DNA of 64,000 nucleotides from Syntrophobotulus glycolicus DSM 8271 (lineage in GTDB: Bacteria > Bacillota > Desulfitobacteriia > Desulfitobacteriales > Syntrophobotulaceae): the NCBI RefSeq assembly GCF_000190635.1, contig NC_015172.1:930001-994000 (forward strand). The letters are read 5' to 3'. Below, piece by piece: positions 26,378 to 61,439 of this stretch. Positions within the stretch are counted from its first letter, which is position 1; every line of letters begins with the position of its first letter. Made by a program: the position numbers and the translations under genes. The notes beneath the pieces were generated by a model. That model was not told where the DNA came from. It did no database searches and was given only the letters and a program-made list of their open reading frames with translations.

Positions 26378-26426
26378 TACCGGCAGGCAGCCTTTTCACC
26401 CCGATATATTTTTGAAGGAATGATGG

Positions 26427-27275
26427 ATGATGTCAACAGCGAGCATGCCGAAAGAGCATATGCCGATCAGCGCAATGATGAGCAACACCAAAATCCAGAT
26501 CAATCATGTTTACAAAAAATTTCCCGCCAAAAAGGGCGATGTCACCGCTTTGAAAGATATCAACATACAGGTGCTGGACAATGAATTTGTATGTGTGATC
26601 GGCCCCTCCGGCTGCGGGAAGTCGACCCTGCTGAAAATTGTCGCCGGTCTGGAGGAGCTGAGCGGCGGGGAGATCCTGGTCAACGATAAGGTCGTGACGG
26701 GGCCGGCCGCGGACAGGGGGATGGTATTTCAGAACTATACGCTTTTCCCCTGGAAGACGGTGGAGGAGAATATCGCCTTCGGGCTTCGTCTGAAAAAAAT
26801 GGAAAAATCCGCTGTGGCTGACATCGTCCATAAATACTTAACCGTCATCGGTCTGGAAAAATTCAAAAAGAGTTATCCCAAAGAGCTTTCCGGCGGCATG
26901 AAGCAAAGAGTGGCAATTGCCCGCGCCCTGGCCAACAGTCCCGAAGTCCTTTTGATGGACGAGCCGTTTGGAGCCTTGGATCCATATACCAAGGCCTCCA
27001 TGCAGGAGCTGTTGCGAAAAATATGGCAGGACGAGAAGACAACCATTCTTTTCGTGACGCATGACATAGATGAAGCAGTCTTTCTTTCCGAGACATTATA
27101 CATCCTTTCCGCCAATCCGGGAGAGGTCCAGGCCAGGGTGCCCATTCATCTTCCGCATTCGCGGTCCATCGAGATCAAGGACAGCACAAAATTTTTCCGT
27201 ATCCGCACCAACCTGTCCAAGGTGATGCAGGGGAAAGAAGACATTGAGGCTATCGATGAAATTTATTCATTCTGA
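26427..27275 (+). CDS. NitT/TauT family ABC transporter ATP-binding protein
   Basis: 282 residues from ATG 26427, with GAAGGA 7 bases upstream. Walker A is GPSGCGKST, the signature LSGGMKQRVAIARAL, Walker B VLLMDEPFGALD and the switch histidine in FVTHDIDEA, all complete. The DIDEAVFLSE segment after the H-loop is typical of SsuB/TauB/NrtD ATPases. It powers the importer formed with the permease directly upstream. Several alternative ATGs lie between 26420 and 26430. Confidence 0.92.
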   Translation: MMSTASMPKEHMPISAMMSNTKIQINHVYKKFPAKKGDVTALKDINIQVLDNEFVCVIGPSGCGKSTLLKIVAGLEELSGGEILVNDKVVTGPAADRGMVFQNYTLFPWKTVEENIAFGLRLKKMEKSAVADIVHKYLTVIGLEKFKKSYPKELSGGMKQRVAIARALANSPEVLLMDEPFGALDPYTKASMQELLRKIWQDEKTTILFVTHDIDEAVFLSETLYILSANPGEVQARVPIHLPHSRSIEIKDSTKFFRIRTNLSKVMQGKEDIEAIDEIYSF

Positions 27276-27306
27276 CAGTGAAAGCATTTCGTTCAAGGAG
27301 GGTAAA

Positions 27307-28362
27307 ATGAAGAAATTGATTGCGGTTTTTCTGATGGTGATCCTGGGCGCCGGTTTCGTGGCGGGATGCGGCAAAAGCAGCTCCCCGGCGGGAGAAAACA
27401 CCGCCGCGGGCAGTAAGGCGATCCAGTTCGGCATCAGTGCTTATCCCAGCTGGTATGTATGGTTTATTGCCAAAGAGGAAAAGATTTTTGAGAAATACGG
27501 GCTGAATGTGAACCTGGTATGGTTTCCGACCTATTCCGACTCCACCCAGGCTTTCCTGACCGGAAATCTGGATTTTGTCTCCCTGGCCCTTTCGGACACT
27601 GTCGCCCCTTATGTGAAGGGGGAAGGACATAAAATCGTCCTGATTAATGATTATTCCAACGGGGCGGACGGACTGGTCGCGGCTCCGGACATCAAATCGG
27701 TTCAGGATTTGAAAGGCAAGACCGTGGCCACGGAGTATGGTACGATTGAGCACTTCTTCTTATTAAGGCTTTTGGAACAAAATAACATGACAGAATCCGA
27801 TATTGACTTTACGAATATGACCATCAGTGACAGCGGGGTAGCCTTTTTAAGCGGCTCGGTGGACGCGGCTTCCCTCTGGGAACCGGCCCTGAGCAAGGCG
27901 CAGGGAAGAGAGGGGACCAATACCCTGTATACCTCCAGGCAAACCCCCGGACTGATTCCGTCCGTGCTGGTGGCCAACCAGAACTATATTGCCGGCAACG
28001 AAGAAAATACGGAAAAGCTGATCCAGGTATGGTTCGACGCCCTGAAATTTTACCAGGACAATCCGGATAAAGCCCTGGAGGATATGGCGAAAAGTACGGA
28101 AATCTCCGTGGAGGAAATGAAGGTCGCCATGTCCGGCTCCAAGCTGTATTCTCTCCAGGACAATCTGGACGCCATGACCAAGCAGAGCGACTCTCTGACC
28201 TATATTCCGTATACGACCAGAATCACGGCCGATTTCCTGTACGGCGTGAAGCTGATCGAAAAGAAGGCCGATGATTACACCGCCTTATTTGATCCGGCAT
28301 ATTTGCAGAAGGTCAGCAAGCTCCGGGCATCGGAACCGGCTCCCGACACAGAGCTGAAATAA
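27307..28362 (+). CDS. NitT/TauT family ABC transporter substrate-binding lipoprotein
   Basis: 351 residues from ATG 27307 (CAAGGAGGGT upstream). The signal MKKLIAVFLMVILGAGFVAG followed by C is a lipoprotein signal with lipobox VAGC. The mature domain has the NMT1/SsuA-like fold: AYPSWYVWFIAKEEKIFEKY, then TYSDSTQAFLTGNLDFVSLA and VQDLKGKTVATEYGT. It catches the substrate outside the membrane and delivers it to the permease. The ligand cannot be read from sequence; the next gene, a ureohydrolase, suggests a guanidino compound. Confidence 0.9.
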   Translation: MKKLIAVFLMVILGAGFVAGCGKSSSPAGENTAAGSKAIQFGISAYPSWYVWFIAKEEKIFEKYGLNVNLVWFPTYSDSTQAFLTGNLDFVSLALSDTVAPYVKGEGHKIVLINDYSNGADGLVAAPDIKSVQDLKGKTVATEYGTIEHFFLLRLLEQNNMTESDIDFTNMTISDSGVAFLSGSVDAASLWEPALSKAQGREGTNTLYTSRQTPGLIPSVLVANQNYIAGNEENTEKLIQVWFDALKFYQDNPDKALEDMAKSTEISVEEMKVAMSGSKLYSLQDNLDAMTKQSDSLTYIPYTTRITADFLYGVKLIEKKADDYTALFDPAYLQKVSKLRASEPAPDTELK

Positions 28363-31704: not shown

Positions 31705-33416
31705 GCTGCACAATATCCGGCAGAGAGTATGCCAATATGTACGGGCCGACCAAAGGAGATAAGATCCGCCTGGCGGATACGGAGTTATGGGTGGAGATCG
31801 AACAGGACTGGACGGTTTACGGCGACGAATGCAAATTCGGCGGCGGCAAGTCCGTGCGGGACGGCATGGGGCAGTCCCCTTCCCGGTCCGGGGAAGAGGG
31901 CGCGCTGGACCTGCTGATCACCAACGCCGTCATCGTGGATTACAGCGGCATCATTAAAGCCGATATCGGGATAAAAAACGGAAAAATCGAAGGGATCGGC
32001 AAAGCGGGGAATCCGGATATCATGGACGGTGTCGCCCCCAATATGGTGATCGGCGCCGCGACGGAGGTCATTGCGGGCGAGGGCCTGATCGTGACCGCCG
32101 GCGGCATCGATACCCATATTCATTTTATTTGCCCGCAGCAGATTGAAACCGCCCTTTACAGCGGCATGACAACCATGATCGGCGGCGGGACCGGACCGGC
32201 GGACGGCACGAACGCCACGACCTGCACCCCCGGCAGATTCAACCTGCACAGGATGCTGGAGGCGGCGGAAGCCTTTCCGGTGAATTTGGGCTTTTTGGGC
32301 AAGGGAAACGCTTCGTTCCCCAAGCCCCTGATCGAGCAGATCGAGGCCGGAGCGCTCGGGCTGAAGCTTCACGAGGACTGGGGGACAACCCCGGCAGCCA
32401 TCGACGCCTGCCTCCGGGTCGCCGACCAGTATGATGTTCAGGCTGCCATTCACACGGATACCCTGAACGAAGCGGGTTTTGTGGAAGACACGATCCGGGC
32501 CATCGGCGGCAGGACGATCCATACCTACCATACCGAGGGAGCGGGCGGGGGACATGCTCCCGATATCATCAAAATAGCGGCGCTGAGCAATATTCTTCCC
32601 TCGTCCACCAATCCGACCATGCCCTTTACCCGCAATACTCTGGATGAGCATCTGGATATGCTGATGGTATGCCATCACCTGGACAGCCGGGTGCCGGAGG
32701 ATATCGCCTTTGCCGATTCCAGAATCCGCCCCGAAACCATCGCGGCGGAGGATGTTCTGCATGATTTGGGCGTCTTCAGCATGATGAGCTCCGATTCTCA
32801 GGCGATGGGCCGGGTGGGCGAGGTGATCATCCGCACCTGGCAAACCGCCGATAAGATGAAACGGCAGCGCGGCGCGTTGCCTCAAGAACGCGGCAACGAT
32901 AATTTCCGGGTCAAGAGGTACATCGCCAAATATACGATTAATCCCGCCGTGACGCACGGGATCGCGGATTATGTGGGCTCGGTGGAGCGCGGCAAGCTGG
33001 CCGATCTGGTTCTGTGGAAGCCGGAAATGTTCGGAGTGAAGCCGGAAATGATCTTAAAGGGAGGGGTGATCACCGCGGGCAGAATGGGGGATGCCAATGC
33101 CTCCATCCCCACCCCTCAGCCTTTGCTTTACCGGAAGATGTTCGGGGCGTTCGGGCGGGCCAAATACAGCGCCTGCGCCACATTTGTGTCCCAGGAATCC
33201 ATAGACAACGGGACAATCGGGGGATTGAACCTGAGTAAACAGATTCTGGCGGTGAAAAACTGCCGGAAGATCACCAAAAAGGATATGCGTCTCAATGACA
33301 GCATGCCCTCGATCGAGGTCGATCCCGAAACCTATGAGGTCAGGGTGGACGGGGAAAGGATCAGCTGTGAAGCGGCGGAAACGCTGCCGCTGGCCCAGCG
33401 GTATTTTTTGTTCTGA
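31701..33416 (+). CDS. ureC: Urease subunit alpha (catalytic)
   Basis: 571 residues from TTG 31701, a full-length UreC. The nickel site is intact: [12 protein letters not shown] supplies two histidines, [10 protein letters not shown] carries the lysine to be carbamylated (Lys222), [11 protein letters not shown] and [15 protein letters not shown] give the third and fourth histidines, and the flap has MVCHHLD with the catalytic histidine. The Asp ligand is in SSDSQAMGR. It hydrolyses urea in the cytoplasm, using nickel loaded by UreEFGD. Confidence 0.98.
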
Positions 33417-45911: not shown

Positions 45912-45972
45912 GAATTGAAATGATTGTCTGACTGGGAGACTAGAGGCCATGAGAATATGTTCATGGCCTTTT
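45912..45972 (+). terminator. Leader 1 terminator (candidate riboswitch or attenuator)
   Basis: AGGCCATGA at 45944-45952 pairs with TCATGGCCT at 45961-45969, followed by TTTT. Upstream, GAATTGAA at 45912 is followed 31 bases later by the stem base, exactly as in leader 2 at 47185-47244. The terminator stands 88 bases before the start of the DUF4395 gene. Confidence 0.65.
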
Positions 45973-46059
45973 CGACTGCCCGGGGCAGAACTAACGTATT
46001 GGCTTTTTTCATCATATTATAGGGAAAATGATCGGATCAGATGAAGAGGAGGATGACTG

Positions 46060-46488
46060 ATGAATGAAATCCCTGTCCCTTATCTTAGGGCCAATCAGAC
46101 CGGAATGGTTATTTTGGTTATCCTTGCGGCTATTGTGGGCCAGCCTTGGATCATTGCGGTTCTATGGCTCATTGAAGCTGCCGGGTTAGTATTCGGGGTC
46201 AAAGGAAACTTGTTTATCCGAACGGCAAAACCTTTTTTGCAAAAAAAGATTGCTCAGGCAGAAACGGAAGCCAGAGAGCTGACCCGTTTTAACAATACGT
46301 TAGCGGTACTCTTTCTGAGCATTTCCCTGGTGTTTTTTGTCCTTGGATGGCCTTTGGCCGGCTATATCACGGCCGGTTTGCTGGCTGGAGTTGCGCTGAT
46401 CGCGATCAGTGGTTATTGTCTCGGTTGTTTTTTGTATTTTCAGGTGAAACAGTTCCGGAGAAAATTCACGAAGACAAAATCAAGTTGA
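46060..46488 (+). CDS. DUF4395 family membrane protein
   Basis: 142 residues from ATG 46060 (GAAGAGGAGG upstream). Four hydrophobic segments and the paired-cysteine region GYCLGCFLYFQV fit DUF4395 proteins. A related protein is often found with thiol or sulfur transfer proteins, but no biochemical role is established. It follows a promoter and leader terminator and precedes a radical SAM gene by 22 bases, so the two are likely co-transcribed. Confidence 0.75.
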   Translation: MNEIPVPYLRANQTGMVILVILAAIVGQPWIIAVLWLIEAAGLVFGVKGNLFIRTAKPFLQKKIAQAETEARELTRFNNTLAVLFLSISLVFFVLGWPLAGYITAGLLAGVALIAISGYCLGCFLYFQVKQFRRKFTKTKSS

Positions 46489-46510: not shown

Positions 46511-47107
46511 ATGATCATGACCTATGAAATAGAAGACAATTTATATGTCAATCTGACCAACCGCTGTCCCAATGCCTGCCGCTTTTGCATCCGGAATAAA
46601 CCGGAAGCTTTCGCGCATGATCTCTGGCTGGATCAAGAGCCCAGCGCCGGGGAGGTCATCCGGGAGATTTTAGCCAGGGAGTTAAGCCAATATCGCCAGC
46701 TGGTGTTCTGCGGCTTCGGCGAGCCCCTGGAAAGGCTTGAGGAAGTGCTGGAGATCGTCAGAAGGGTGAAGGAAAAAAACAAAATCTATGTCAGGATCAA
46801 CACGAACGGGCTGGCTGGCAAAATCCACCGCAGGGATGTCACTCCCCAATTCGAGACGCTGATCGACGGTCTTTCCATCAGCCTCAATGCGGGGAATGCC
46901 GAAGAGTATGATGCTGTCTGTCACAGCGTATTTGGGTTGGAGGCCTTCCCGGCAATTCTCGATTTCGCGGCCAAAAGCAAAGCCTATGTGCAGGATGTGC
47001 AATTCTCAGTTGTTGATTGCCTGCCGCCGGACCGGCTGGCAGCCTGCCGGAAAATAGCGGCGGAGCTCGATATCCCCTTGAAGGTGCGCAGGGAAGTGAA
47101 AGCCTGA
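46511..47107 (+). CDS. Radical SAM protein, TatD-linked type
   Basis: 198 residues from ATG 46511; ATG 46517 is an alternative. NLYVNLTNRCPNACRFCIRN gives the CxxxCxxC motif that binds the 4Fe-4S cluster and SAM, and VFCGFGEPLE the glycine-rich SAM-binding motif. RINTNG is typical of small radical SAM enzymes. Length and the LYVNLTNRCPNAC start match the group usually fused to or next to TatD nuclease; no tatD gene is visible here. The substrate is unknown. The nitrogenase-like operon follows after a promoter and leader. Confidence 0.8.
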   Translation: MIMTYEIEDNLYVNLTNRCPNACRFCIRNKPEAFAHDLWLDQEPSAGEVIREILARELSQYRQLVFCGFGEPLERLEEVLEIVRRVKEKNKIYVRINTNGLAGKIHRRDVTPQFETLIDGLSISLNAGNAEEYDAVCHSVFGLEAFPAILDFAAKSKAYVQDVQFSVVDCLPPDRLAACRKIAAELDIPLKVRREVKA

Positions 47108-47116: not shown

Positions 47117-47146
47117 CTTGACCGCTGAAAATCAAATATTGTATGA
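47117..47146 (+). promoter_or_regulatory. Promoter of leader module 2 (nitrogenase-like operon)
   Basis: TTGACC at 47117-47122 and TATGAT at 47141-47146 with an 18-bp spacer, starting about 10 bases after the radical SAM stop. It drives the leader that ends in the terminator at 47216-47244. Confidence 0.6.
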
Positions 47147-47184
47147 TGTTATCCGTCAGATCATCTGCAGGAATAATATTCTTT

Positions 47185-47244
47185 GAATTGAAGACAGTGA
47201 TTGCCCAGAAAACTGGAGGTCATACCATGGTATGGCCTCTTTTT
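47185..47244 (+). terminator. Leader 2 terminator (candidate riboswitch or attenuator)
   Basis: GAGGTCATA at 47216-47224 pairs with TATGGCCTC at 47231-47239 (one G-U pair) around a CCATGG loop, followed by TTTTT. The upstream part GAATTGAA at 47185 and the following 31 bases align without gaps to leader 1 at 45912, with about 18 of 31 matching plus all eight of the box. It stands 60 bases before the first nitrogenase-like gene. Confidence 0.65.
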
Positions 47245-47303
47245 GTATGATTTGGGGCCTGCAGCCGGATGATTCCGTACCTGCAGGATGAAACGGGGGG
47301 GAA

Positions 47304-48767
47304 ATGATGACGGTTAATTTAAAAGAACCGGCGGTAGAATTGAGAGAACTGAGGTTGAAGACAATTACCGGTTATGAGGGGGATGCTGTCGATTTAAACA
47401 GCAGGGACGATTTTCGCAATCGGGAACGTTCTTTTACGCAGTGCGGTTCCTGCGGGGCGGACCAGGTGATGAACCTGCTGACCCAGATTCAGGACGCGGC
47501 GGTGGTCGAGCATGGGCCGGCAGGCTGCGCCGGTGATATTTCTTTCCGCAATGGGACGTTCCGGACGGGAAATAAGCGCATGGGCTATGCCGTGCATAAT
47601 GTGAAATACATCAATACCAATCTGGATGAAAACGATACCATATTCGGGGGGGAGGCCAAGCTGGTCAGGGCCGTCCGGGAGGCTTACCGGAGATTTCAGC
47701 CCAGGGCGATTTTTGTCACCACCACCTGCGCCTCGGCCATTATCGGCGATGATGTTCCGGGCATCTGCGATGATTTGGAAGAGGAATTGGGAATCCCGGT
47801 GGTGGCCACCTTATGTGAAGGCTTCCGGACCAATATTTGGGCCACGGGTTTCGACTCGGCCAATCACAGTATTTTACGCAAGATTGTCAAACCGGCCCGC
47901 CAAAAACAAGCGGATTTGATCAATGTGATCAGTTTCCAGCACCGCTTTGTCTATGAAAGTGTTTTCCGGCAGATGGGGCTGCGTCCCAATCACATTGTGC
48001 CGCTTTCCACGATCGAACAGCTGGAGCGCATCTCGGAAGCGGCGGCCACAGTCCAGTATTGCCAGACGTTGGGCACTTATCTGGCCGCCGGGCTGGAGCA
48101 GCACTTCGGAGTCCCGGAGGTGAAAGCGGCCGCTCCCTTTGGCCTGCGGGCCTCAGATGAACTTCTGCGGGAGATCGGCCGGATCTTTCATAAGGAAGCG
48201 GAGGCGGAACAGGTCATCCGCTCGGAACGGGAAAAAATTGCCGAAGACCTGGCCTATCTGCGGGGCCGCCTGAGCGGCAAGACTGCGTTTATCGCCGCGG
48301 GGGGACCCCTGGCTTACAGTATTCTGGCCCTGGTGAAGGATTTGGGGATGGAGGTCGTGGGCACCTGTGTCTGGCACCATGATCAGGTTTATGATAACAG
48401 GCATGAAAAGCTCAATTTTTTAAACTTTGCGACGGAGCATTATGGGAACTTTCCGGTGGGCGTCTGCAATAAGCAAGCGTTTGAGGTCATCAATGCCATT
48501 AATAAGCATCAGCCGGATATTGCCATTTCCAGGCATATGTCGACGGTTTGGGCGGCGAAGCTGGGCATTCCGTCCATTTTTGCCGGCAATGAACCGACCG
48601 AAATGCTGTATGACGGCTTGGTCCGCTTTGGCCAGACCATTCATGACGCCATTTTCAATCCGGCTTTCATCAACAATATCGCCCGCCACAGCAAGCTGCC
48701 CTATACGGACTGGTGGCTGGAGCAAAATACCTATTCTTTCTTAAAAGGGTGCGAAAACAATGAGTGA
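47304..48767 (+). CDS. Nitrogenase component 1-like protein, alpha-type (D1)
   Basis: 487 residues from ATG 47304 (GGGGGGG upstream). Oxidored_nitro fold with NifD-like landmarks: P-cluster cysteines at Cys47/Cys50 in TQCGSCGAD, Cys75 in GPAGCAGD and Cys142 in TTTCASAIIGDD; CEGF at 171-174. Cys253 in VQYCQTLGTY aligns with the FeMo-cofactor cysteine of NifD. The region of the cofactor histidine (HSWDYSGPYHG in NifD) reads GNEPTEMLYDG and lacks it. It is therefore not a standard nitrogenase but a reductase-like relative binding a P-cluster-type centre and perhaps another cofactor. The stop overlaps the start of K1. Confidence 0.85.
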   Translation: MMTVNLKEPAVELRELRLKTITGYEGDAVDLNSRDDFRNRERSFTQCGSCGADQVMNLLTQIQDAAVVEHGPAGCAGDISFRNGTFRTGNKRMGYAVHNVKYINTNLDENDTIFGGEAKLVRAVREAYRRFQPRAIFVTTTCASAIIGDDVPGICDDLEEELGIPVVATLCEGFRTNIWATGFDSANHSILRKIVKPARQKQADLINVISFQHRFVYESVFRQMGLRPNHIVPLSTIEQLERISEAAATVQYCQTLGTYLAAGLEQHFGVPEVKAAAPFGLRASDELLREIGRIFHKEAEAEQVIRSEREKIAEDLAYLRGRLSGKTAFIAAGGPLAYSILALVKDLGMEVVGTCVWHHDQVYDNRHEKLNFLNFATEHYGNFPVGVCNKQAFEVINAINKHQPDIAISRHMSTVWAAKLGIPSIFAGNEPTEMLYDGLVRFGQTIHDAIFNPAFINNIARHSKLPYTDWWLEQNTYSFLKGCENNE

Positions 48768-50091
48768 TGTTGAAATTATCCAGGAACCGCGCCATACCTG
48801 CGCTCTGGGAGGGCTGCAGACCGTAGTGGCCATTGAACGGGCCATTCCCATCTTGCATGCCGGACCGGGCTGCGGCTCCAAGCTGCACCGGGGCATGGCC
48901 CTGGCGGGGGGTTACCAGGGAGCCGGTTACGCGGGGGCGGATGCGACCCCGTGTACGAATATGATCGAGAAGGATGTGGTTTTCGGGGGGACCGAAAAAC
49001 TGCGGGACCTGATTGAGGGGACCCTGAAAATCATGGACGGGGACTTTTTTGTGGTTTTAACCGGCTGCACCGCCGATATTATCGGCGATGATGTCGGCAG
49101 TGTGGTGGCCGATTTCCAGGCCCGGGGGATACCCATCGTCCATGCTGAAACGGCCGGTTTCAAAGGGGATTCCTACAAAGGGCATGAGCTGGTGCTGGAG
49201 GCCATTATCAGGCAGTACCTGCAGCCGGCCGCCCACAAGGAAAAGGGGCTGGTCAATATTTTGGCCAGTGTGCCCCGGCATGATCCTTTTTGGGAAGGAG
49301 ATCTCCATGAGGTGAAAGAACTGCTGGCGGGCATCGGCTTAAAGGCCAATATCTTGTTTGGTTTTGACAGCGGGGGCCGGAAAGCTTTGGAGGCGATCCC
49401 CTCCGCGGAGTTTAACCTGGTGCTTTCTCCCTACCAGGGCTTGAAAACCGCCCAACTGCTGCAGGAGAAATTTGACACCCCTTACCTGCATTATCCGGTT
49501 TTGCCGGTGGGCGGGGCGGAAACCTCCAAGTTTCTGCGGACGGTGGCGGAATTTGCCGGAACCTGGTCCCAAGCCGCCGCTGACGCTGTCGCTTACAGGG
49601 AACGGGAATTTTATCATTATCTGGTGCGTTCCGCGGACCTGCTGACCGAATTCCAGCTCCAGATGCCCAGACGGTTTATCAATATTAATGATGCTTCCTA
49701 CGCCCTGGCGTTCAGCAAGTTTTTGGTCAATGAGCTGGGATATTTCCCGATCCGGCAATTCATTACCGAGAACGTTCCGGAGGAATACCGGCAGCCGGTG
49801 GCGGGTTATTTTCAGGAACTGGGTCCCGGCATTTCCACGGAGGTGACCTTTGCCCAGGACGGAGGGGTGATCAGTGAGGTCATCAATTCCACCAGAATAC
49901 GGGGAACGCCCCTGGTTCTGGGCAGCTCCTGGGAGATCGACCTGGTCGGCAGCATCAAAGGACTGCAGCTGAGTGTGGCCCTGCCGGTCATTGACCGCCT
50001 GATTCTGCATCGCAGCTATGTGGGATACCGGGGCGGCCTGAATCTGGTCGAGGATATTTACAGTAAACTGCTGGCCCTCAATCGCGGTTAG
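48760..50091 (+). CDS. Nitrogenase component 1-like protein, beta-type (K1)
   Basis: 443 residues from ATG 48760, overlapping D1 by 8 bases. NifK-like cysteines for the P-cluster are conserved: Cys14 in RHTCALGGLQ, Cys38 in GPGCGSKLH and Cys103 in LTGCTADIIGDD. The chain is much shorter than NifK because the N-terminal extension is missing. It should form a heterotetramer with D1. Electron donor would be a NifH-like iron protein, but none is encoded in the window. Close in sequence layout to K2 at 51619, pointing to duplication of the pair. Confidence 0.85.
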   Translation: MSDVEIIQEPRHTCALGGLQTVVAIERAIPILHAGPGCGSKLHRGMALAGGYQGAGYAGADATPCTNMIEKDVVFGGTEKLRDLIEGTLKIMDGDFFVVLTGCTADIIGDDVGSVVADFQARGIPIVHAETAGFKGDSYKGHELVLEAIIRQYLQPAAHKEKGLVNILASVPRHDPFWEGDLHEVKELLAGIGLKANILFGFDSGGRKALEAIPSAEFNLVLSPYQGLKTAQLLQEKFDTPYLHYPVLPVGGAETSKFLRTVAEFAGTWSQAAADAVAYREREFYHYLVRSADLLTEFQLQMPRRFININDASYALAFSKFLVNELGYFPIRQFITENVPEEYRQPVAGYFQELGPGISTEVTFAQDGGVISEVINSTRIRGTPLVLGSSWEIDLVGSIKGLQLSVALPVIDRLILHRSYVGYRGGLNLVEDIYSKLLALNRG

Positions 50092-50147
50092 CCGGGAGGG
50101 GGGCTGTGGGGCGGTCTGCCCTATATTTGAGGAAAGAAGGAATGAGA

Positions 50148-51635
50148 ATGGCGATTAATTTAAACGTAAGCGCCGTAGGTACGCGGGAAGAACGGCTGGG
50201 CTCGGTCGTGGGATATGTGGGGGACATCAAGGATCTGGCCCGCCAGAGCAGGTGCGGGACCTTAAAGGACCAGGAGCGCTGCTTCAGTCAGTCCAGCACC
50301 TGTGACAATGGCTGTGCGGTGCACTATCTGGCCCACATCCGCGATGTGGCCGTGATTATCCATGCCCCTTCAGGCTGCGCGGCGCTCGCGTCAGCCTCGG
50401 TCACCATGCACACCCAGCTGGCCGACAAACGGGGCCTGGAGTATCATTCAGTGATTTTGGGAACGGACATGAATGAATCGGATACGGTTTTCGGCGCTGT
50501 GGACGGCCTGCGGGATATTGTGGTGCAGACCTATGAACGGTATAAGCCCTCCGCTGTTTTTGTCGCCACTTCCTGCGTATCCGGAATCATCGGCGAGGAT
50601 GTTGATTCTGTCGTGGAGGAGCTGGACCGGGAGCTGCCGGTACCGGTTGTGGCCATGCATTGCGAGGGCTTTAAATCCAAGGTGTGGGCGACCGGTTTTG
50701 ACGCCGCGGATCATGCGATTCTAAGAGGGATTGTCAAGCCGCCCCGGGAAAAAAGAAATGTCATCAATTTTAAAAACTTCAATGAACTGGCCCGCCGGGA
50801 AATCACCGAGATGTTCGCCAATTTCGGGGTAACTCCGTTTTTCCTCTATTCCAATACCACAGTGGAGGAGCTTTCCCATATTTCAGAAGCCCTGGCCACG
50901 GTCTCCATCTGCGGGACCCTCAGTTCTTATCTGGGCAACGCGCTGGAGCAGGAATACGGGGTTCCTTATATTAAAACCATCAATCCTCTGGGCGTGGCCG
51001 GTTTTGAGATCTGGCTGCGGGAAATCGGGCGGGTGATCGGCAAGGAAAATGAGGTGGAAGCGTATATTCAGGAGCAGCGCCAAATTTACCTCCCCCAGCT
51101 GGAAGAGGTGAAAAAGAAGCTCAAAGGATTGCGGGTCGTGCTGGGCATGGGCTCCAGCTTCGCCTTTCAAGTGGCCCGGGTGATCCAGGAGCTGGACATG
51201 GAAGTGGCTTATATCGCCTCCTGGCATTATGATTCCCGCTACGACGACGGGGAAGCGCCGCCCCATGTGCAATACCTGGCGGAGCACACGCCTGATAATT
51301 TTAAAGTCAGTGTGGCCGACCAGCAGAATTTTGAGATTTTGAATATCCTGAATACCTATAAGCCGGACCTTTATCTGGCCAGACACGGGGGAACCACGGT
51401 TTGGGCCATCAAACAGGGAACGCCCTCGATTTTTATGGCGGATGAGTACATGACGTACGGCTACAAAGGCACTCTGGATTTTGCCTATAAAATTTTAGCG
51501 GCCATTACCAACCGCAGTTTTGAGAAAAACCTGTCCTCCCGGATCGAGCTGCCCTACACCAGCTGGTGGTATGAGCAGGACAGCAGCTTGCTATACAAGA
51601 AAGAAGAGGTGGAAGCCAATGCCCAGGATACTTGA
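50148..51635 (+). CDS. Nitrogenase component 1-like protein, alpha-type (D2)
   Basis: 495 residues from ATG 50148, placed 7 bases behind AGAAGG; ATG 50142 is too close. P-cluster type cysteines are Cys52/Cys56 in STCDNGCAVH, Cys77 in APSGCAAL and Cys143 in ATSCVSGIIGED. The cofactor-type cysteine is Cys255 in VSICGTLSSY, and the usual cofactor histidine is again missing (region reads FMADEYMTYGYKG). It shares KVWATGFDAADHAILRGIVK with D1, so the two alpha-type proteins are paralogues. It overlaps K2 by 17 bases. Confidence 0.85.
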   Translation: MAINLNVSAVGTREERLGSVVGYVGDIKDLARQSRCGTLKDQERCFSQSSTCDNGCAVHYLAHIRDVAVIIHAPSGCAALASASVTMHTQLADKRGLEYHSVILGTDMNESDTVFGAVDGLRDIVVQTYERYKPSAVFVATSCVSGIIGEDVDSVVEELDRELPVPVVAMHCEGFKSKVWATGFDAADHAILRGIVKPPREKRNVINFKNFNELARREITEMFANFGVTPFFLYSNTTVEELSHISEALATVSICGTLSSYLGNALEQEYGVPYIKTINPLGVAGFEIWLREIGRVIGKENEVEAYIQEQRQIYLPQLEEVKKKLKGLRVVLGMGSSFAFQVARVIQELDMEVAYIASWHYDSRYDDGEAPPHVQYLAEHTPDNFKVSVADQQNFEILNILNTYKPDLYLARHGGTTVWAIKQGTPSIFMADEYMTYGYKGTLDFAYKILAAITNRSFEKNLSSRIELPYTSWWYEQDSSLLYKKEEVEANAQDT

Positions 51636-52923
51636 TCAAACTCGCTATAAATGCGCTTTATCCGCCATTCAGACAGTCCAAGCCATCTCCGGGGCCCTGC
51701 CGATCCTGCATTCCGGTCCGGGCTGCTCGGACCGCTTATCGAGCGGGGCCGGAACGTCCGGGCATTTTGCCCCGCGGATTTTTCCCTGTACCAATATCAG
51801 CGAAAAAGAAGTCATTTTCGGCGGAGAGGAAAGGCTGCGGGAAACCATTGCCAATGCTCTTAAGGTAATCAATGCCGAGCTTTTTGTGGTGCTGACGGGC
51901 TGTTCGGCTGAAATTGTGGGAGATGACGTGGAGGAAGTGGTCCGTTCGTTCAGAGATGCCGAAAAACCGGTGCTTTACGCCTCCACGGCCGGCTTTAAGG
52001 GCAATAATTATCTGGGCTATGAGTGGGTCCTGGAAGCGATCATCAGTCAATATTTACAAGACGGTTCTGCCTATCCCCAAGAACCGGGTCTGGTCAATAT
52101 TTTCGCCAGTATTCCCCTGCACGACCCGTTCTGGCACGGCAACCTGGAGGTTCTGGCCCAGCTTTTGTCCGAACTGGGTCTGCAGCCCAACATCATTTTC
52201 GGCTATGACAACGGCATGAAGAATATCGACAAAATTCCCTCCGCCCAGTTCAATCTTCTGGTATCTCCCTGGCAGGGACTGGACAGCGTCAAGCTCTTGG
52301 AGCAAAAGTACGGCACTCCCTATTTCCATTATCCCAATCTCCCCGTGGGCGCTTTTGAAACCAGCAAATTTTTAAGGGCGGTCAGTGATTTTGCCGGACT
52401 GGACCGCGAAAAAACCGAGGCTGTCGTGAAAGAAAAGGAACGTAAATATTACTACTTTATCGAGCGGTTTGCCGATCTCTTTCTGGAGAACAGAATCATG
52501 GCCCAAAGGTTCGTGATTGTCTCCGACGCCCAGTATACTCTGGCGCTGACCAAATTTCTGGTCAATGACCTGGGGCTTTTTCCGGAGAAGCAATATATTA
52601 TGGATGATACGCCGGAAAAATACCGCCAGGCTATCGCGGGATATTTCCGGGATCTGAATTTTGGCATTGAGACCGAGGTTTCCTTTGAGACCGACGGCTA
52701 TAAGGTCCACGAGGAAATCGAGGCTACGGATTACCACGGCTATCCCCTGATCGTGGGCAGCGCCTGGGAAAAAAAGCTGGCCCGCAAAACCTCGGCCCAC
52801 TATTTGTCGGTTTCCTGGCCGCTCACGGAAAGACTGATCATCAACAGTTCTTATGCCGGCTATGAGGGAGGCCTGAAATTCCTGGAGGATATTTATTCGG
52901 TGGTGCTGACGCGCTTCAATTAA
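51619..52923 (+). CDS. Nitrogenase component 1-like protein, beta-type (K2)
   Basis: 434 residues from ATG 51619 (GGTGG upstream), overlapping the end of D2. Cys12 in RYKCALSAIQ, Cys36 in GPGCSDRL and Cys95 in LTGCSAEIVGDD are the three P-cluster-type ligands. The rest parallels K1 (STAGFKGNNYLGYE, HDPFWHGNL, LPVGAFETSKFLR). It is the last gene of the four-gene operon. Together, D1K1 and D2K2 could be an enzyme plus a cofactor-assembly scaffold, like NifDK plus NifEN, or two enzymes; sequence alone does not decide. Confidence 0.85.
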   Translation: MPRILDQTRYKCALSAIQTVQAISGALPILHSGPGCSDRLSSGAGTSGHFAPRIFPCTNISEKEVIFGGEERLRETIANALKVINAELFVVLTGCSAEIVGDDVEEVVRSFRDAEKPVLYASTAGFKGNNYLGYEWVLEAIISQYLQDGSAYPQEPGLVNIFASIPLHDPFWHGNLEVLAQLLSELGLQPNIIFGYDNGMKNIDKIPSAQFNLLVSPWQGLDSVKLLEQKYGTPYFHYPNLPVGAFETSKFLRAVSDFAGLDREKTEAVVKEKERKYYYFIERFADLFLENRIMAQRFVIVSDAQYTLALTKFLVNDLGLFPEKQYIMDDTPEKYRQAIAGYFRDLNFGIETEVSFETDGYKVHEEIEATDYHGYPLIVGSAWEKKLARKTSAHYLSVSWPLTERLIINSSYAGYEGGLKFLEDIYSVVLTRFN

Positions 52924-52998: not shown

Positions 52999-53433
52999 AT
53001 GAACACCCCGAAAGAATATTGGAATAATGAATACCGAAAGCAGCGGATAGAGAAACCCGTCTATGATCTTTGGCTGGCTAAATATAAAGACATATTGGGG
53101 AAAGCGAAAGATACCCACATCATTGATCTGGGCTGTGGGCAGGGGAATAACAGCCTGTATCTGACTGAAAGAGGTTATAAGGTCCTGGCTTGTGATATCT
53201 CTGAAATTGCCATAGAACGCTTAAAAAAGCAGATATCCGGGGCAGAAACCAGGGTTTTTGACATGCTCGACGGACTTCCCTTTGAGACGAATAGGGCAGA
53301 AATTGTCATTGCCGACTTATGCCTGCACTATTTTGCCTGGACGGAGACTCTCGGTATCGTTCAGGAAATAAAGAGGATTCTGGTTGACGGAGGCAATCTG
53401 CTCCTGCGGGTTAATTCCACTCATACTAATTAG
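52999..53433 (+). pseudogene. SAM-dependent methyltransferase truncated by an IS630 insertion
   Basis: 144 codons from ATG 52999. MNTPKEYWNNEYRKQRIEKP opens a class I methyltransferase; motif I is IIDLGCGQGNNSLYL and the later IADLCLHYFAW and IKRILVDGGNLLLRVNS are motifs IV to VI. After RVNSTH the gene meets the left end of an IS630 element and stops within its inverted repeat at 53431-53433. The normal C-terminal third is missing, and the sequence after the element does not continue the family. Probably inactive. Confidence 0.8.
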
Positions 53434-54550
53434 CGTATAATATATGGAAATATTTAGGTATATATGGTATAATATTAAACAAGGAAGGTGCTGATATTAT
53501 GCCAAAATACCAGTTTAGCGAAGCCCAAAAAGAAGAAATATTAGAAGCGTCAAAGAAGAGCAAAAATACTTTCGAATACAAAAGACTTCAATGCTTAGTA
53601 TTAAGATTTGAGAAAAATATGAAGTTACATGAAATCAGTGAAATCGTAGGTTATAACTATAAAGCCGTAGGAAATATCATATCAAAATATTTTGTAGAAG
53701 GCCTTAACGGTATACTTGGAGAAAAAAGAAAAGGCGGTAATAAAAGATACTTGAGTGTAGAAGAAGAGAACTCATTATTAGAACCATATTTGAAGAAAGC
53801 AGAACAAGGGAAAATGCTGATTGTGGCTGAAATAAATGAGGCCTATGAAAAAAAGATCGGACATAGTGTTCTTGCCGCAACAGTGTATAGGATGCTTTCC
53901 AGACATAACTGGAGAAAAATAGTTCCAAGAAGTAAACATCCGAAATCCAAACCAGAAGAGCAAGAGGCTTACAAAAAAAATCACGGACAAAATAAGTGAA
54001 CTGGTAAATTTTAGCACAAAAAACTGCGTCTGATGTTTCAAGATGAAGGACGTTTTGGGCGTATCAATAAACCTAAACTATGCTGGTGGCCTAAGGGGAT
54101 TTGCCCGAGAGTCCCTTGCCAAGTAGTAAGAGAATATACATACGCCTACGCCGCAGTCTCACCACAAGACGGGAAGATGGTTTCATTGGTGTTACCGTAT
54201 GCCAATACTGATTGTATGAATGTGTTTTTAAAAGAAGTATCCGACCGGTTTCCTGAAGATCATATTGTTATGGTCATGGACTGTGCTGCATGGCAGAGAT
54301 CTAAAACTTTAAAAATTCCAGAAAACATGGAAATCTATCCGCTTCTGCCTTATAGCCCTGAGCTGAATCCTGTTGAAAATATTTGGGATGAGGTTAGAGA
54401 GAAAGGCTTTTTCAACGAGATATTCAAGTGCATGAAAGATGTTGAAACTAGACTCTGTGACATTTTGCATGATCTAGAAACTGATGATAAGAGAGTTAAA
54501 GGCATAATGGGTTGGAAATGGATACTTTCCATGTTTTAAATGCAAATTAG
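53426..54550 (+). mobile_element. IS630-family insertion sequence with TA target duplication
   Basis: About 1125 bp. The left end CTAATTAGCGTATAA (53426-53440) and the right end, read in reverse as CTAATTTGCATTTAA (ending at 54550), match at 11 of 15 bases. Both are flanked by TA (53424-53425 and 54551-54552), the hallmark of the IS630/Tc1 group. Inside is a transposase in two reading pieces. It inserted into a methyltransferase gene. Confidence 0.85.
53499..54539 (+). pseudogene. IS630 transposase, interrupted by two compensating shifts in A runs
   Basis: The first part (53499-53999; MPKYQFSEAQKEEIL start behind GGAAGG) contains the N-terminal helix-turn-helix. The second (from 54033) carries the DDE core: Asp in MFQDEGRFG, Asp in VMVMDCAAWQ and Glu in PYSPELNPVENIWDE. 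Both lie in the same frame, but the bridge between them is open only in another frame: an A8 run at 53973-53980 and an A6 run at 54018-54023 need one base less and one base more to give KKITDKISELVNFSTKKLRL. It is either decayed or expressed by frameshifting, as some IS630 elements are. Confidence 0.75.
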
Positions 54551-56685: not shown

Positions 56686-59600
56686 ATGTATTCTGGCGAA
56701 ACACTCAATTCAAGAATGAATAGTGTAAAAGCTGACTATAGAAACGCAATGAAGAGTTTTACCAACATGGTCAATCTATTCAAATCCGGGCTGGACTTTA
56801 CCGAAATGGATAATCTACAAAATTTGCTTGCAACCTGTCGTCTCTGCCATGAATCGCTCTTTGGCGCATTTGAAACCATAATGAAAATCTTGGCAGGAAA
56901 ATTGGAAGAGCAACCAGTAGGTAAAGGCTTCCCGACACTCATTAGTCTTTCCAGAGATCTGCACAGGATATCAACCGGTTCAAAACGGGGCTCAGTACCT
57001 GGTCTAGCAATTGACTATACAGCAATCCAAAAGATAGAGCTCGACAAAATTGTTTCAACAAAAGATGTGCGCAATGATTTGACTCATAAGGGAATTATCC
57101 GTGAAGCGCGACATTATGAGAGCCTGTTTGAAAACTTAAAGCGGCTTATTCGAATGGTTGACCCTGATTTCAATGATATAGTGCCGCCCGATGTTCGGGA
57201 GCTTGAGCAAGAGACATTTGGGCACTTTTTAAAGCATATCAAATTTGATGAAGTGTGGGCACCACCGGCTCATATCCTTATTATGGACTCCATTTGGACT
57301 ATACCGGACGATCATGCAGCACTACTACTCTCTTTGCCTTGGGACGTAATCATAGATTTAGATGGCCGGGGCATTGGAAATTGGGAGTATGACGGCAATC
57401 GCAAGATAAGGTATAATATCGCTGCTTCGAGCCGTGTGCAAAAAATTATAGAAAGCGGCGGCAAAAAAACCATTCCTATATTTGCAATCAAACCAGATGA
57501 GAACAATTATTCCATGATTCAAAATGTCGAAAGAATTCCGTATTTAAACTATTCGGATGGAGATATATCGCTTAATAAAGATACAGAAAAAAGCCTTGAT
57601 GCATTGACCACACAGCTGCGCAAGGCAAGAAGCAACCACATCAATATAGATAAAGCGCAAGAAAATCTCACCATGAAGCAGAGGAAAATAAACGTCATAC
57701 GTAAGTTTTTAAAAGAATATCTCAGCAATTACGACTCTGCTGTCATTGTCAGTCTTGCGGAGGCGTTTAGTCAGGATAATAGCAGCCAACAAATCATCCA
57801 TGAGATTTTTAAAAAAATAGATATAAACATACAGGTGATACTGGTGCAGGATGCACTTGATGCGAAGGTTCCTTTGCCCGATTGGATTGACGAAACCATG
57901 TGCATGACTTGGAATTGTGAGTTAAGTACGTTTTTTAGCGAGATTTATAAAAACAGAGATATGTTTTCCGGTTATAGGTCTACTGAAAATAAAAAGAAAA
58001 GCAAGGATAGTTATCGGTTTATCCTGCGGGACAAGGTGGAAAAGATGATCTCCCGAAACGGCATCATAAAAGAAGTGGAAGATTATTTTGAGCTATTGCA
58101 TTTAGATGTCGGAATGGAGGCGTCCAGAGATGGAGAGGAATTATTTTACCGTGGGCATTTAGCGGAGTGGTCTGCACTAAATAATAAGTGCGACACGGAT
58201 ATCGCACCTGATACGCATAAGAAACTCGTTCAGCGGATCAGAAGCTCATTTACGACCAACCCGGAAGTAGAAAATACATTCTTTATTCTACATCAGCCGG
58301 GAGTCGGTGCTACGACACTAGGACGACGTATTGCATGGGATATCCATAAAGATTTTCCCGTAGCGATTTTGAAGCGTTTTGACAGTAAGTTGCTCAACAA
58401 CCGTATCAGTTCGTTATATAGAGCGCTCGAAAATACACCGTTTCTGATTTTGGTCGATTCGGCTCACGGTGTGTCCGATGATGACATTGATGAATTTGTC
58501 AAGCTCATGAGACACCAAAACTTCCCAATTGCGGCACTTGTTGTTCAACGGAATCATAGCAGCCGAGTTGGAAAAAATGTGTATACCCTTCCAAAGCTGG
58601 ATTCAGATGGCATTGATGCTATCAAAATAAGGTGTATGAAATGCGCTCTTGCCCTTTATGACACGCAGCAAGAGATGATTTCCCATGTCGATGAGCTTGA
58701 TAGATATATTGAAAAATCGCATCAAACTCCCATGATAATCAATATGTATATCATGGACAAAAATTTCAAGACACCTGAGCAATATGTCCGTTCGTTTATT
58801 GACAAGAATACTTTACCTGAGAATATTGTAAAGATATTGACATATGTATCGCTTTATTCAAAATATACCGATCACGAACTCTCCATTAGGTTCATTAGTT
58901 CTATTTATCATGCGGATGGCGTGTCGCGAGAAAGCAAGGCGTTCCAAACCGTTATGCAGAATTACGACAAGCTGTTGTTGTTCAGACCCTCGGCTAAATC
59001 AGGCCCTCCGGAAAGCGTGCGGTGCATCCACCCATTGTTTGCCACAGAAATTTTGCGTTGGTTGAAAGGTGATTCTTGGGAATATAGCCTTGCTGAAATG
59101 AGCTGCGATTTTGTAGAATCGACGCTGGCAGTGCTGACCGACAAAACCACAACCGAAAGCTTATCATGGTTGTTTGCTCGTAAGAGTAGGAATTATTCTG
59201 AAGAAACTAGCGGCAATATGACAAATTTAGTTGAAGCTGTGATGAAGGTTACATTAAGGAGCTCAGGAATTGAACTATTGGAGAAGGTGGCAAGCCGTGT
59301 CGCGGGATACATTAGTGAGAACGAGACCCTCATAGATGAGGATGAAACCACCGATTACAGCCATATTCTTAACTTGAGTGCTAGACTTTGGGCTCAGTGC
59401 GCCCGGTATTACCGCAACAGCGATTGCTATGATGAGTCCATGATGGATAAATATACCGAATTATCCTTGATGACACTAGACAAGGATAATCCGGAGGCAC
59501 AAAAGGGTTTTCAAGATTTGTATCATATGGCAGGTGTTTGTTGGAGTAAAAAACTCAAAAATCTTTTTGAGAACTCTCCGGATGACAATAGCGATGAAAA

Positions 59601-61101
59601 TATCGCAAATATAAAAAGTATATTCGATACAACCATAGATTATTACGGAAAATGTGTTCAGCTGGGAAAATTGGATTATGCGTTGCCATCCATGATGTCC
59701 CTATATGCTTTGGTTCTAAAGTATGTTTTCAATATGCTTGGTTTTCTCAAGGATGACTATAAACCGGAGAAGCTGGACGACATCAAGTTCAGTTGGGTGC
59801 AACAGGATATCATCGAAGAAGCAAACCAATTGATTGATGACGCGGAGCAATATGAACTCAGCAAAGAAGCATCCGAATTGTTCAACACTTACGCTAATGA
59901 TTTCCGCTACACCTATATGTTAAAGGACAACATCAGGATGCTGCAGGATCTCAACAACTATATTGACCGGCTAAGAATTAGCGCCCAAGAGCATCCGGTT
60001 TCGCTCCAGCAGGCATACGCCCAGAGGGTCTATTACATTTTAAACAAATACTATGACGAAAAAACCAAAACGTATAACTACCTGTCGCTATATGAAAACA
60101 AAATTGATTTAGATAAAGTGCGCAGTAGTATTGACAGTGCACTTGGGTATTATGGCAGGAAACAGAATTACCTTTATAAAATATGGTTTAAACTCGCTAA
60201 ACTTGACGATACGCCATTTGCTAAAGCTAAACAAAAAGCACTAGATTGGGCTGCTTTGATCAACGGTCAGAAGAAATCGTCGCGATATAGCCGGGAGATC
60301 GGACCTTTTTACTATATGTATGTCATCTCTCTATTAAGCAAACAACCCGCAGCAAATGTGAAAAAAGACTGGGATTTGCTCCAAATGAACAATAGTATCA
60401 ATGATACGAACAGAAACGAAGAGTGGATATTAGACTACTATACATCTGGAAAAACCGGAATGGGTTGCCTGGTAGACCGTGATTGGGCTCCACATGATGG
60501 GATTAGGGACAATGCTATGGTTAGCTGGGTAAAAGGAAGAATCGTACACATTTCGACAGATGAAATTGTGGGTGGGATTGATGTCGATAAAAGCATCGTA
60601 GATTTAAGCAAAAAGCAATATAAGAGTGAGGGACAGGTATTCTTCAAACCCCGTACCGCAGATAAGACAATCAATCAAAACGGCGACGAAGTCGAATTAA
60701 AATTTGGCTTTACATTAACGCGTCTGCGTGCTGTTGACAATACCATTCCAGACAAAAAACCACTTGCACGTGGAAGGAGCGAGAATGTTGTTCTTAAAAC
60801 CACCGTGTATTTGCCAAATGACTGGGTGCAGTTTATTCCTGAATGGATTTTCAAGGCTGGGCAAAACCGGACTCCGCTGCTTTTGATTGGCAAGGTAGAT
60901 GGGCAAAGGGCAGCCTTGCATATTGGTGATATACAGAAATATTCCAATTTGGAACTAAATTCATTTGGTAGCGCTCAAAACGTACTCATTCGCTTAAAAG
61001 AAACGAAATCCATCTATGCAACTGTTGAGAAAAAAGGAAAACGTGGACTCGAGTTGTCACTTTATGCGACAGGACAAAAGCTCAGCGAAGTCATAAAATG
61101 A
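56686..61101 (+). CDS. SAMD9-like STAND NTPase with HEPN-type motif, predicted defence protein
   Basis: 1471 residues from ATG 56686 (AGGAGGGGG upstream). Residues 1-170 are helical and carry Arg129-NDLT-His134, an RxxxxH motif of HEPN ribonuclease domains. About 190-430 resembles the SIR2-like part of SAMD9 proteins (LLLSLPWDVIIDLDGRG, VIVSLAEAF). At 487-500 comes FYRGHLAEWSALNN, then the P-loop FILHQPGVGATTLGRRIAWD (533-552) and Walker B FLILVDSAHG (Asp591). These match the HQPGxGGTTL core of animal SAMD9/SAMD9L. Helical repeats (TPR-like) fill about 850-1200, and a beta-rich end (from about 1270) resembles the OB fold. In bacteria such proteins are predicted anti-phage sensors. It sits in a mobile island with IS630 pieces on both sides. 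Confidence 0.8.
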   Translation: MYSGETLNSRMNSVKADYRNAMKSFTNMVNLFKSGLDFTEMDNLQNLLATCRLCHESLFGAFETIMKILAGKLEEQPVGKGFPTLISLSRDLHRISTGSKRGSVPGLAIDYTAIQKIELDKIVSTKDVRNDLTHKGIIREARHYESLFENLKRLIRMVDPDFNDIVPPDVRELEQETFGHFLKHIKFDEVWAPPAHILIMDSIWTIPDDHAALLLSLPWDVIIDLDGRGIGNWEYDGNRKIRYNIAASSRVQKIIESGGKKTIPIFAIKPDENNYSMIQNVERIPYLNYSDGDISLNKDTEKSLDALTTQLRKARSNHINIDKAQENLTMKQRKINVIRKFLKEYLSNYDSAVIVSLAEAFSQDNSSQQIIHEIFKKIDINIQVILVQDALDAKVPLPDWIDETMCMTWNCELSTFFSEIYKNRDMFSGYRSTENKKKSKDSYRFILRDKVEKMISRNGIIKEVEDYFELLHLDVGMEASRDGEELFYRGHLAEWSALNNKCDTDIAPDTHKKLVQRIRSSFTTNPEVENTFFILHQPGVGATTLGRRIAWDIHKDFPVAILKRFDSKLLNNRISSLYRALENTPFLILVDSAHGVSDDDIDEFVKLMRHQNFPIAALVVQRNHSSRVGKNVYTLPKLDSDGIDAIKIRCMKCALALYDTQQEMISHVDELDRYIEKSHQTPMIINMYIMDKNFKTPEQYVRSFIDKNTLPENIVKILTYVSLYSKYTDHELSIRFISSIYHADGVSRESKAFQTVMQNYDKLLLFRPSAKSGPPESVRCIHPLFATEILRWLKGDSWEYSLAEMSCDFVESTLAVLTDKTTTESLSWLFARKSRNYSEETSGNMTNLVEAVMKVTLRSSGIELLEKVASRVAGYISENETLIDEDETTDYSHILNLSARLWAQCARYYRNSDCYDESMMDKYTELSLMTLDKDNPEAQKGFQDLYHMAGVCWSKKLKNLFENSPDDNSDENIANIKSIFDTTIDYYGKCVQLGKLDYALPSMMSLYALVLKYVFNMLGFLKDDYKPEKLDDIKFSWVQQDIIEEANQLIDDAEQYELSKEASELFNTYANDFRYTYMLKDNIRMLQDLNNYIDRLRISAQEHPVSLQQAYAQRVYYILNKYYDEKTKTYNYLSLYENKIDLDKVRSSIDSALGYYGRKQNYLYKIWFKLAKLDDTPFAKAKQKALDWAALINGQKKSSRYSREIGPFYYMYVISLLSKQPAANVKKDWDLLQMNNSINDTNRNEEWILDYYTSGKTGMGCLVDRDWAPHDGIRDNAMVSWVKGRIVHISTDEIVGGIDVDKSIVDLSKKQYKSEGQVFFKPRTADKTINQNGDEVELKFGFTLTRLRAVDNTIPDKKPLARGRSENVVLKTTVYLPNDWVQFIPEWIFKAGQNRTPLLLIGKVDGQRAALHIGDIQKYSNLELNSFGSAQNVLIRLKETKSIYATVEKKGKRGLELSLYATGQKLSEVIK

Positions 61102-61439
61102 TTTTTTATTTATCATTGCAAATATTGGATGGGAAATATGATAAAGATTTGATAATAAAGATTGTACTTGACAATCATAGTGCGCATACTTCGAAAGAAA
61201 CCATGAAATATTTGGCTAGCAGACCAGGAAGGTTTGAATTTGTATTCACCCCAAAACACGGATCATGGCTAAGCCTAATAGAAAGCTTCTTCGGAAAGTT
61301 AGCAAGGGTATGCCTGAAGGGCATCAGAGTAAAATCTAAAGAAGAACTCATCGATAGAATCTACCGATATCTGGATGAAGTTAATGAGGTTCCTGTCGTT
61401 TACCATTGGAAATATAAAATGGATGAAATTCAAATCTGA
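61098..61439 (+). pseudogene. IS630-type transposase, C-terminal fragment
   Basis: The frame that overlaps the end of the SAMD9-like gene reads DKDLIIKIVLDNHSAHTSKE, then FVFTPKHGSWLSLIESFFGK and KEELIDRIYRYLDEVN, the second Asp and the catalytic Glu regions of an IS630-type DDE transposase. Its N-terminal two thirds are absent; the ATG at 61098 is not a real start. It differs from the IS630 at 53426, so a second element once lay here and its left part was replaced by the defence gene. It directly abuts a truncated nitrilase gene. Confidence 0.75.

Follow-up and report, generated by a model that had tools for sequence, protein, structure and literature searches.

Two nitrogenase-like gene pairs of Syntrophobotulus glycolicus as probable new members of the methylthio-alkane reductase superfamily

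Results

Two gene pairs in tandem

The window analysed is a stretch of 64,000 nucleotides from the glycolate-degrading anaerobe Syntrophobotulus glycolicus DSM 8271 (NC_015172.1, positions 930,001 to 994,000), and it contains four consecutive forward-strand genes for nitrogenase-like component-1 proteins, here called D1, K1, D2 and K2 (Table 1; positions are those of the window unless given as genome positions). A preliminary description of the window had recognised them as tandem pairs, and all four products are indeed full-length PF00148 proteins (E 1e-59 to 1e-79, profile search). From their sequences, the pairs are predicted to be two distinct, uncharacterised subfamilies of the methylthio-alkane reductase (MAR) superfamily, and D1K1 and D2K2 are very likely carbide-cluster reductases of that superfamily. 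MAR has been described as the only nitrogenase-like enzyme for which both nitrogenase clusters, the P-cluster and [Fe8S9C], have been shown (PMC12552129).

The D1/K1 and D2/K2 genes overlap by a few bases and the K1-D2 gap is about 50 bases, which makes a single D1K1D2K2 transcript likely. The starts in the open reading frame (ORF) list for D2 (50106) and K2 (51520) were judged too early. D1 and D2 are 38% identical, and K1 and K2 50%. The genome is a single contig of 3,406,739 bases in which the four genes lie at 977-983 kb; judging from gene order and position, they should be Sgly_0993-0996, one of two four-gene sets among the nine nitrogenase-like pairs listed for this organism by Dos Santos et al. 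in 2012 (PMC3464626). The 24 PF00148 proteins that we detected in the genome are nine nitrogenase-like pairs, NifDK, NifEN and AnfDK. Because the locus was already in the 2012 survey, the genes themselves are not new; we found no earlier description in the literature of the cofactor ligands, clade, partners or leader of Sgly_0993-0996.

Table 1. Features of the D1-K1-D2-K2 locus and its upstream region
Feature	Position	Strand	Description	Remarks
D1	47304..48767	+	alpha-type MAR-like component-1 subunit, 487 aa	PF00148; best PDB match MarD 9fmg_A
K1	48760..50091	+	beta-type partner, 443 aa	best PDB match MarK 9d9u_C
D2	50142 or 50148..51635	+	second alpha-type subunit	best PDB match MarD; start read from ribosome-binding site and ATG
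K2	51619..52923	+	second beta-type subunit	best PDB match MarK; ATG at 51619 overlaps D2 stop
Leader element of D1-K1-D2-K2	47193..47246	+	4-bp hairpin (CCAG/CTGG), then AGG at 5' arm of intrinsic terminator
Possible sigma-70 promoter	47118..47147	+	TTGACC-18-TATGAT, 10/12 matches	weak; site count not above shuffled expectation
Radical S-adenosylmethionine (SAM) protein	46511..47107	+	small; TIGR04100/TatD-linked type and distinct from NifB	link to D1K1D2K2 not conserved
DUF4395 protein	46060..46488	+	PF14340; putatively co-regulated	not conserved beside D1K1D2K2 (single-member cluster)
Second leader copy	45920..45977	+	before DUF4395 and radical-SAM genes	R1 42.3 bits (seed sequence); fold z-score -4.0

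Closest structural and family relatives

The top PDB relatives of all four proteins are MarD and MarK of Rhodospirillum rubrum (D1 379, K1 417, D2 328 and K2 383 bits), whereas the best nitrogenase or NifEN entries reached only 85-125 bits. AlphaFold models of D1 and D2 (predicted local distance difference test scores of 82.8 and 78.8) gave template modelling scores of 0.89 and 0.85 to MarD (9fmg_A), compared with about 0.7 to nitrogenases. The R. rubrum MarHDK system (group IV-C; PDB 9fmg, 9d9u) thus has the same fold, but identity to it is 36-39% for the D and 42-45% for the K proteins, and the D1K1D2K2 operon contains no marB or marH.

The preliminary description had separated the proteins from nitrogenase and from the dark-operative protochlorophyllide oxidoreductase (DPOR) group, and this separation stood: curated cut-offs were missed and the clades are distinct. 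Against the nitrogenase component-1 families, D1 scored 152 of the required 653 bits for nifD, 125 of 823 for VNFD and 91 of 874 for ANFD. With the nifE profile, D1 and D2 gave 180 and 163 bits (cut-off 505), and NifEN was rejected on these scores. DPOR and chlorophyllide oxidoreductase (COR; BchNB, BchYZ) were rejected on a best score of 99 for BchB (cut-off 490), and CfbD on scores of at most 57 (cut-off 268); moreover, the D and K genes are paired here. The isethionate reductase IsrBHDK of Rhodobacter capsulatus resembles the present system in its group IV membership, its C-S cleavage and the sulfonate transporters nearby. IsrD is set apart by its published description, with one P-cluster cysteine and no Cys275 (PMC11423573), whereas D1 and D2 keep all three P-cluster cysteines and the equivalent of MarD Cys270. 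The heliobacterial group IV NflDK2-4 proteins (PMC9147875), which were compared by description only, and the nine S. glycolicus pairs (PMC3464626) are of the same superfamily; those studies reported neither a cofactor histidine nor a function, and placed the proteins no more finely than group IV.

That the pairs are an alternative nitrogenase is very improbable. P-cluster and cofactor ligands are present, and for related group IV-A proteins of Endomicrobium and Heliophilum a nitrogenase function has been proposed (PMC9147875), but Gln191 and His195 of NifD are replaced by Trp and Phe, the clades lie far from Nif and Anf, MAR itself has no N2-reducing activity (PMC12552129), and the genome already encodes NifHDKEN and AnfHDGK.

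Cluster ligands and the active-site pocket

In MarD, Cys66, Cys91 and Cys158 are P-cluster ligands and Cys270 and His429 hold the [Fe8S9C] cluster; Arg428-His429 lie on a MarD-specific loop (Loop I) that has been proposed as a hallmark of MAR (PMC12552129). Using the six MAR P-cluster cysteines (MarD C66/C91/C158 and MarK C32/C56/C121) as reference, we located the corresponding residues by alignment in D1 (C50/C75/C142), D2 (C52/C77/C143), K1 (C14/C38/C103) and K2 (C12/C36/C95), in agreement with the three P-cluster-type cysteines first noted in each protein. The cofactor cysteines also proposed at that stage, Cys253 of D1 and Cys255 of D2, align with MarD Cys270. The accompanying statement that the cofactor histidine had been lost was wrong, because the MarD-type ligand is kept: NifD His442 had been sought, as in the 2012 survey, and the histidine is missing at that place only. 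Loop I carries R410-H411 in D1 and R412-H413 in D2. Trp195, Phe199 and His375 of MarD are conserved in both proteins as well.

An alignment of 61 D proteins placed these residues in a wider frame. Among 48 members of the MAR superclade, Arg or Lys is found at position 428 in all and His429 in 46, from which it follows that the Arg-His signature marks a superfamily wider than MAR. Two superclade D proteins (L057 and L061, from genomes G031 and G013) have Arg428 but Ala at the cluster histidine 429, and may ligate the cluster in another way. His194, in contrast, is restricted to the MarD clade (10/10 versus 0/38 of the other superfamily members), as is the full Cys73-Gln74-His194 triad. At the triad positions D1 reads Asn-Leu-Ile, and D2 His-Tyr-Val. 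Its replacement suggests that these are probably reductases different from MAR, and a pocket wall unlike that of MarD makes a separate substrate for each pair probable.

Phylogeny and distribution

The phylogeny used two D trees (a careful one of 45 rows and a quick one of 61) and a K tree of 60 rows. D and K trees agree in separating the MAR superclade from other group IV pairs, Nif and Anf, and within it MarD/MarK, D1/K1 and D2/K2 form separate clades with support of 99-100 (D1 and D2 clades 100/100 each; K1 and K2 clades 100 each, the K1 clade being congruent with that of D1). The MarD and MarK clades (support 100, n=10 each) leave out both pairs, so neither pair falls inside Nif, Anf or MarD/MarK. 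In approximately unbiased (AU) tests a single clade of MAR and D2 was rejected (p 1e-4), as was an exclusive D1+D2 clade (p 4e-4), and with it a tandem duplication of one pair; MAR+D1 was not rejected (p 0.26). Orthologues from Sporomusa and Pelosinus are 82% identical to D1 and 69-70% identical to D2, and none of 60 nearer relatives has a D1 homologue above 44% identity, a pattern that makes horizontal transfer likely.

These results bear on the idea that D1K1, D2K2 or both are ordinary methylthio-alkane reductases, acting on dimethyl sulfide or methylthioethanol in an organism without bona fide MarDK. MAR is the closest characterised enzyme, every cluster ligand is kept, the tree uniting D1 with MarD is allowed, and the niche is free, as none of the nine nitrogenase-like D proteins of S. 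glycolicus belongs to the MarD clade. We nevertheless regard this as unlikely, given the invariant triad of the MarD clade that D1 and D2 have replaced, the rejected grouping of MAR with D2, and Sporomusa, where a true MarDK adjoins D1K1, so that D1K1 is no substitute for it there.

Linkage of the pairs and partner proteins

In five other loci (L026, L027, L028, L029 and L043) no more than about 1.6 kb separates D1K1 from D2K2, and their orientation varies; D2 of L029, from a metagenome-assembled genome, carries a frame break. S. glycolicus has a D2K2 paralogue that stands alone (genome 2824492-2827279). In one stretch from another genome (L054, 1483-4449; G048:C165) two D-type nitrogenase-like genes lie in direct tandem, with no K gene in the fetched sequence.

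Dos Santos et al. suggested an enzyme-plus-scaffold arrangement for such pairs (PMC3464626), in which one would be a NifEN-like assembly platform for the other, and the preliminary description had named this beside a new reductase. The gene order resembles nifDKEN, cluster ligands occur in both pairs, and their close linkage recurs elsewhere. A scaffold role is still improbable: no catalytic ligand is missing from either alpha chain, the MarD-type histidine being present in both, D2K2 has its lone paralogue, the orientation of the pairs differs among genomes, the D1+D2 clade is rejected, R. rubrum marBHDK has been described without a dedicated scaffold (PMC12552129), and S. glycolicus encodes a true NifEN. 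Since the pairs are not nitrogenase, NifEN, DPOR/COR, CfbD or bona fide MAR, a new reductase is still the best reading.

The window flanks contain no gene for NifH, NifB or NifEN, as had been stated, but the rest of the genome encodes three NifH proteins and two NifB-type proteins besides NifDK, NifEN and AnfHDGK. The absence of an iron protein gene is likewise only local. A single Fe protein (genome 2841767-2842645) has MarH as its top structure (493 bits versus 290 for the next Fe protein); its gene lies 1.86 Mb from D1K1D2K2 behind the same leader element, described below. Its neighbours are MetNIQ-type genes, metH, a metY/metC-type gene and a NifB-like gene (genome 2845791-2846681; 288 bits, where the NifB cut-off is 344). 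The remaining two nifH genes sit in the nif and anf operons, and the MarH-type protein would therefore be the one that serves the nitrogenase-like (nfl) pairs; it is apparently common to all nine pairs of the organism. The small radical-SAM gene upstream of D1 was rejected as a MarB/NifB substitute: it is of the TIGR04100/TatD-linked type (237 bits for TIGR04100, cut-off 262; 208 bits for TIGR04038, cut-off 129.7), and conserved adjacency to D1K1 is absent.

Sulfur genes near orthologues and paralogues

In Sporomusa and CTSoil_079 a metY gene lies directly upstream of D2K2 with cysK near, and in a Family XIII bacterium (L030) D1K1 is preceded by a NifB-like gene and followed by cysK. Within S. 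glycolicus, four of the nine metY-type genes are found less than 2 kb from an nfl pair (0.15 expected; circular-shift p 8e-4), the pairs concerned being other than D1K1 and D2K2. A D/K pair at 1.437 Mb has metY on both flanks and is followed by an SsuA-type ATP-binding cassette (ABC) system, and a SAM riboswitch precedes the metY pair at 2.816 Mb. The recurrence of metY, cysK, MetNIQ and SsuA-type genes near orthologues and paralogues suggests sulfur scavenging by C-S cleavage. A URO-D-type methyltransferase gene and a corrinoid protein gene lie directly upstream of the nflDK pair at genome 2815-2823 kb (L020, 11500-18979), beside two metY-type genes and the SAM riboswitch.

The same sulfur genes count against a reductase for non-sulfur substrates, with a carbon-nitrogen, carbon-halogen, selenium or other bond as target and only the cofactor machinery in common with MAR. 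The divergent pocket would suit such an enzyme, and URO-D-type methyltransferase, corrinoid and iron-containing alcohol dehydrogenase genes in other nfl units hint at varied substrates; type I corrinoid methyltransferase clusters are mostly selenium-related and some adjoin MarHDK-like genes (PMC10418091). On balance we hold a non-sulfur substrate to be rather improbable.

A leader element shared with other nfl genes

A short element precedes D1 and is read as a transcription attenuator (R1 model 41.6 bits, E 3.8e-7, as a seed sequence; fold z-score -3.15); its terminator was also found by an independent scan. Comparison of upstream regions in S. glycolicus gave the consensus [GC]TGA, a 4-bp hairpin, AGRC or AAGGC opening the 5' terminator arm, and a T-run. 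The stem occurs as CTGG/CCAG, CCAG/CTGG, TCAG/CTGA, CTAG/CTAG, CCGG/CCGG and CCAA/TTGG. Stem pair counts are strongly above shuffles and slid controls, support that is partly by construction because the seed copies were picked for having stems.

The R1 RNA model gave at least 25 matches at E<=0.1 in the 3.4-Mb genome, 16 of them in an nfl island at 2.76-2.86 Mb (the scan scored 150 of 1544 candidates; a separate one found the D1 copy). Among the matches listed, 10 of the 18 non-seed ones fall in this island, which is about 3% of the genome. Each of 12 other nfl-bearing genomes had 3-49 matches, including G114 and G168, which contributed no seeds. At E<=0.001 there were none in 57 of 60 relatives, including most with ordinary nif genes only; two nfl-rich genomes, G013 and G048, lacked matches too. 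In the fetched loci, which are nfl-centred and include the seeds, the leader precedes 23 of 43 nitrogenase-like transcription units, and among other genes the figure is 22 of 162; for the nfl/sulfur class p is 1.3e-5. In S. glycolicus it stands before D1K1D2K2 and four further nfl units, the DUF4395-radical SAM unit, cysK, the MarH-type gene, the unit of NifB-like and MetNIQ genes, ABC transporters, nitroreductases and a few genes whose connection to sulfur is not clear. At genome 2862247-2862414 (L022, 18248-18311 and 18351-18415) two leaders stand in tandem before one ABC transporter operon.

The leader is apparently undescribed. Rfam 15 gave no match at the gathering score, with chance-level hits only in permissive scans of three copies, and in the literature we found nothing on CymR GGAAT or on a nitrogenase or sulfonate riboswitch. 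ANTAR-controlled attenuators (PMC3369931) likewise have a small hairpin directly upstream of an intrinsic terminator, but the present leader has one covarying 4-bp stem, mostly a loop of 3-5 nt, and no A1/G4 hexaloop pair. ANTAR control was rejected on this difference in motif and because the sole ANTAR protein (genome 1816899) is encoded far from the islands. A CymR-like operator candidate, TATAGGAATAGTG, lies 14-21 nt before the leader; it is clear at only a minority of copies and individually significant at about 5 of 27, and was set aside as a lead. The CymR-like Rrf2 protein at genome 2871231 scored under the curated cut-off. A second set of leaders with another upstream sequence (around GTCATATTGGCT[GA]AT; genome 917053, 923784, 925491 and 929337, and window 6367-6444) precedes ABC exporter, GNAT and DUF5680 genes and is perhaps a separate sub-regulon.

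Discussion

Few nitrogenase-like enzymes have a known substrate. We think it rather probable that each of the pairs D1K1 and D2K2 is a catalytic component of its own within the MAR superfamily and cleaves C-S bonds of organosulfur compounds, with substrates other than those of MAR. This proposal rests on the position of the proteins in the family, the conserved ligands, the partner genes, the genomic context and the shared leader. Several observations weigh against it. The pocket residues that mark MAR are missing from D1 and D2; no sulfur gene adjoins D1K1D2K2 in S. glycolicus, the nearest metY-type gene being about 58 kb away, so that a simple operon link to metY is absent; and the leader is also found before some genes without an evident part in sulfur metabolism (GNAT, ABC exporters).

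A working scheme for the regulation, partners, clusters and C-S chemistry of the pairs would be as follows. Low sulfur would relieve attenuation at the leader, and organosulfur compounds would be imported. A NifB-type protein, for example the NifB-like protein near the MarH-type gene, would supply the cluster precursor. Each pair would probably assemble as a (DK)2 tetramer that contains a P-cluster and an [Fe8S9C] cluster without homocitrate, the latter held by Cys253 and His411 in D1 and by Cys255 and His413 in D2. The MarH-type protein could feed ATP-gated electrons via the P-cluster to this cluster in D1 or D2, where the C-S bond would be cut reductively, and MetY or CysK would fix the freed thiol or sulfide.

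Tentatively, and with less conviction, we suggest a broader view in which the pairs are two new substrate classes of carbide-cluster organosulfur reductases and an nfl regulon of Bacillota (the pairs, Fe protein, NifB type, cysK and transporters) is controlled by an undescribed family of RNA attenuators that sense sulfur status directly or via a protein. Through the leader element, the members of the regulon could be listed, partner genes identified and the inducing signal probed. Several clades that carry the Arg-His Loop I signature coexist in one cell, and with nine pairs apparently dependent on one MarH-type Fe protein, S. glycolicus is suited to asking how the protein scaffold, and not the cluster, sets the substrate.

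Other features of the window

Directly after K2 lies a short ORF with a methyltransferase domain (52999-53433, 144 aa), perhaps cut off by the neighbouring transposase; broken pieces of DDE-type transposases at 53499-54539 and 61098-61439 fit a mobile past of the locus. An ORF of 1471 aa without a Pfam match (56686-61101) may encode an NTPase-type protein. At 24875-28362, upstream of urease genes, two PII/NifI-like genes precede an ABC transporter with an NMT1-type binding protein. A match to the Rfam family 5_ureB_sRNA (31857-32151, reverse strand) lies antisense inside the urease alpha-subunit gene and may reflect coding conservation only.

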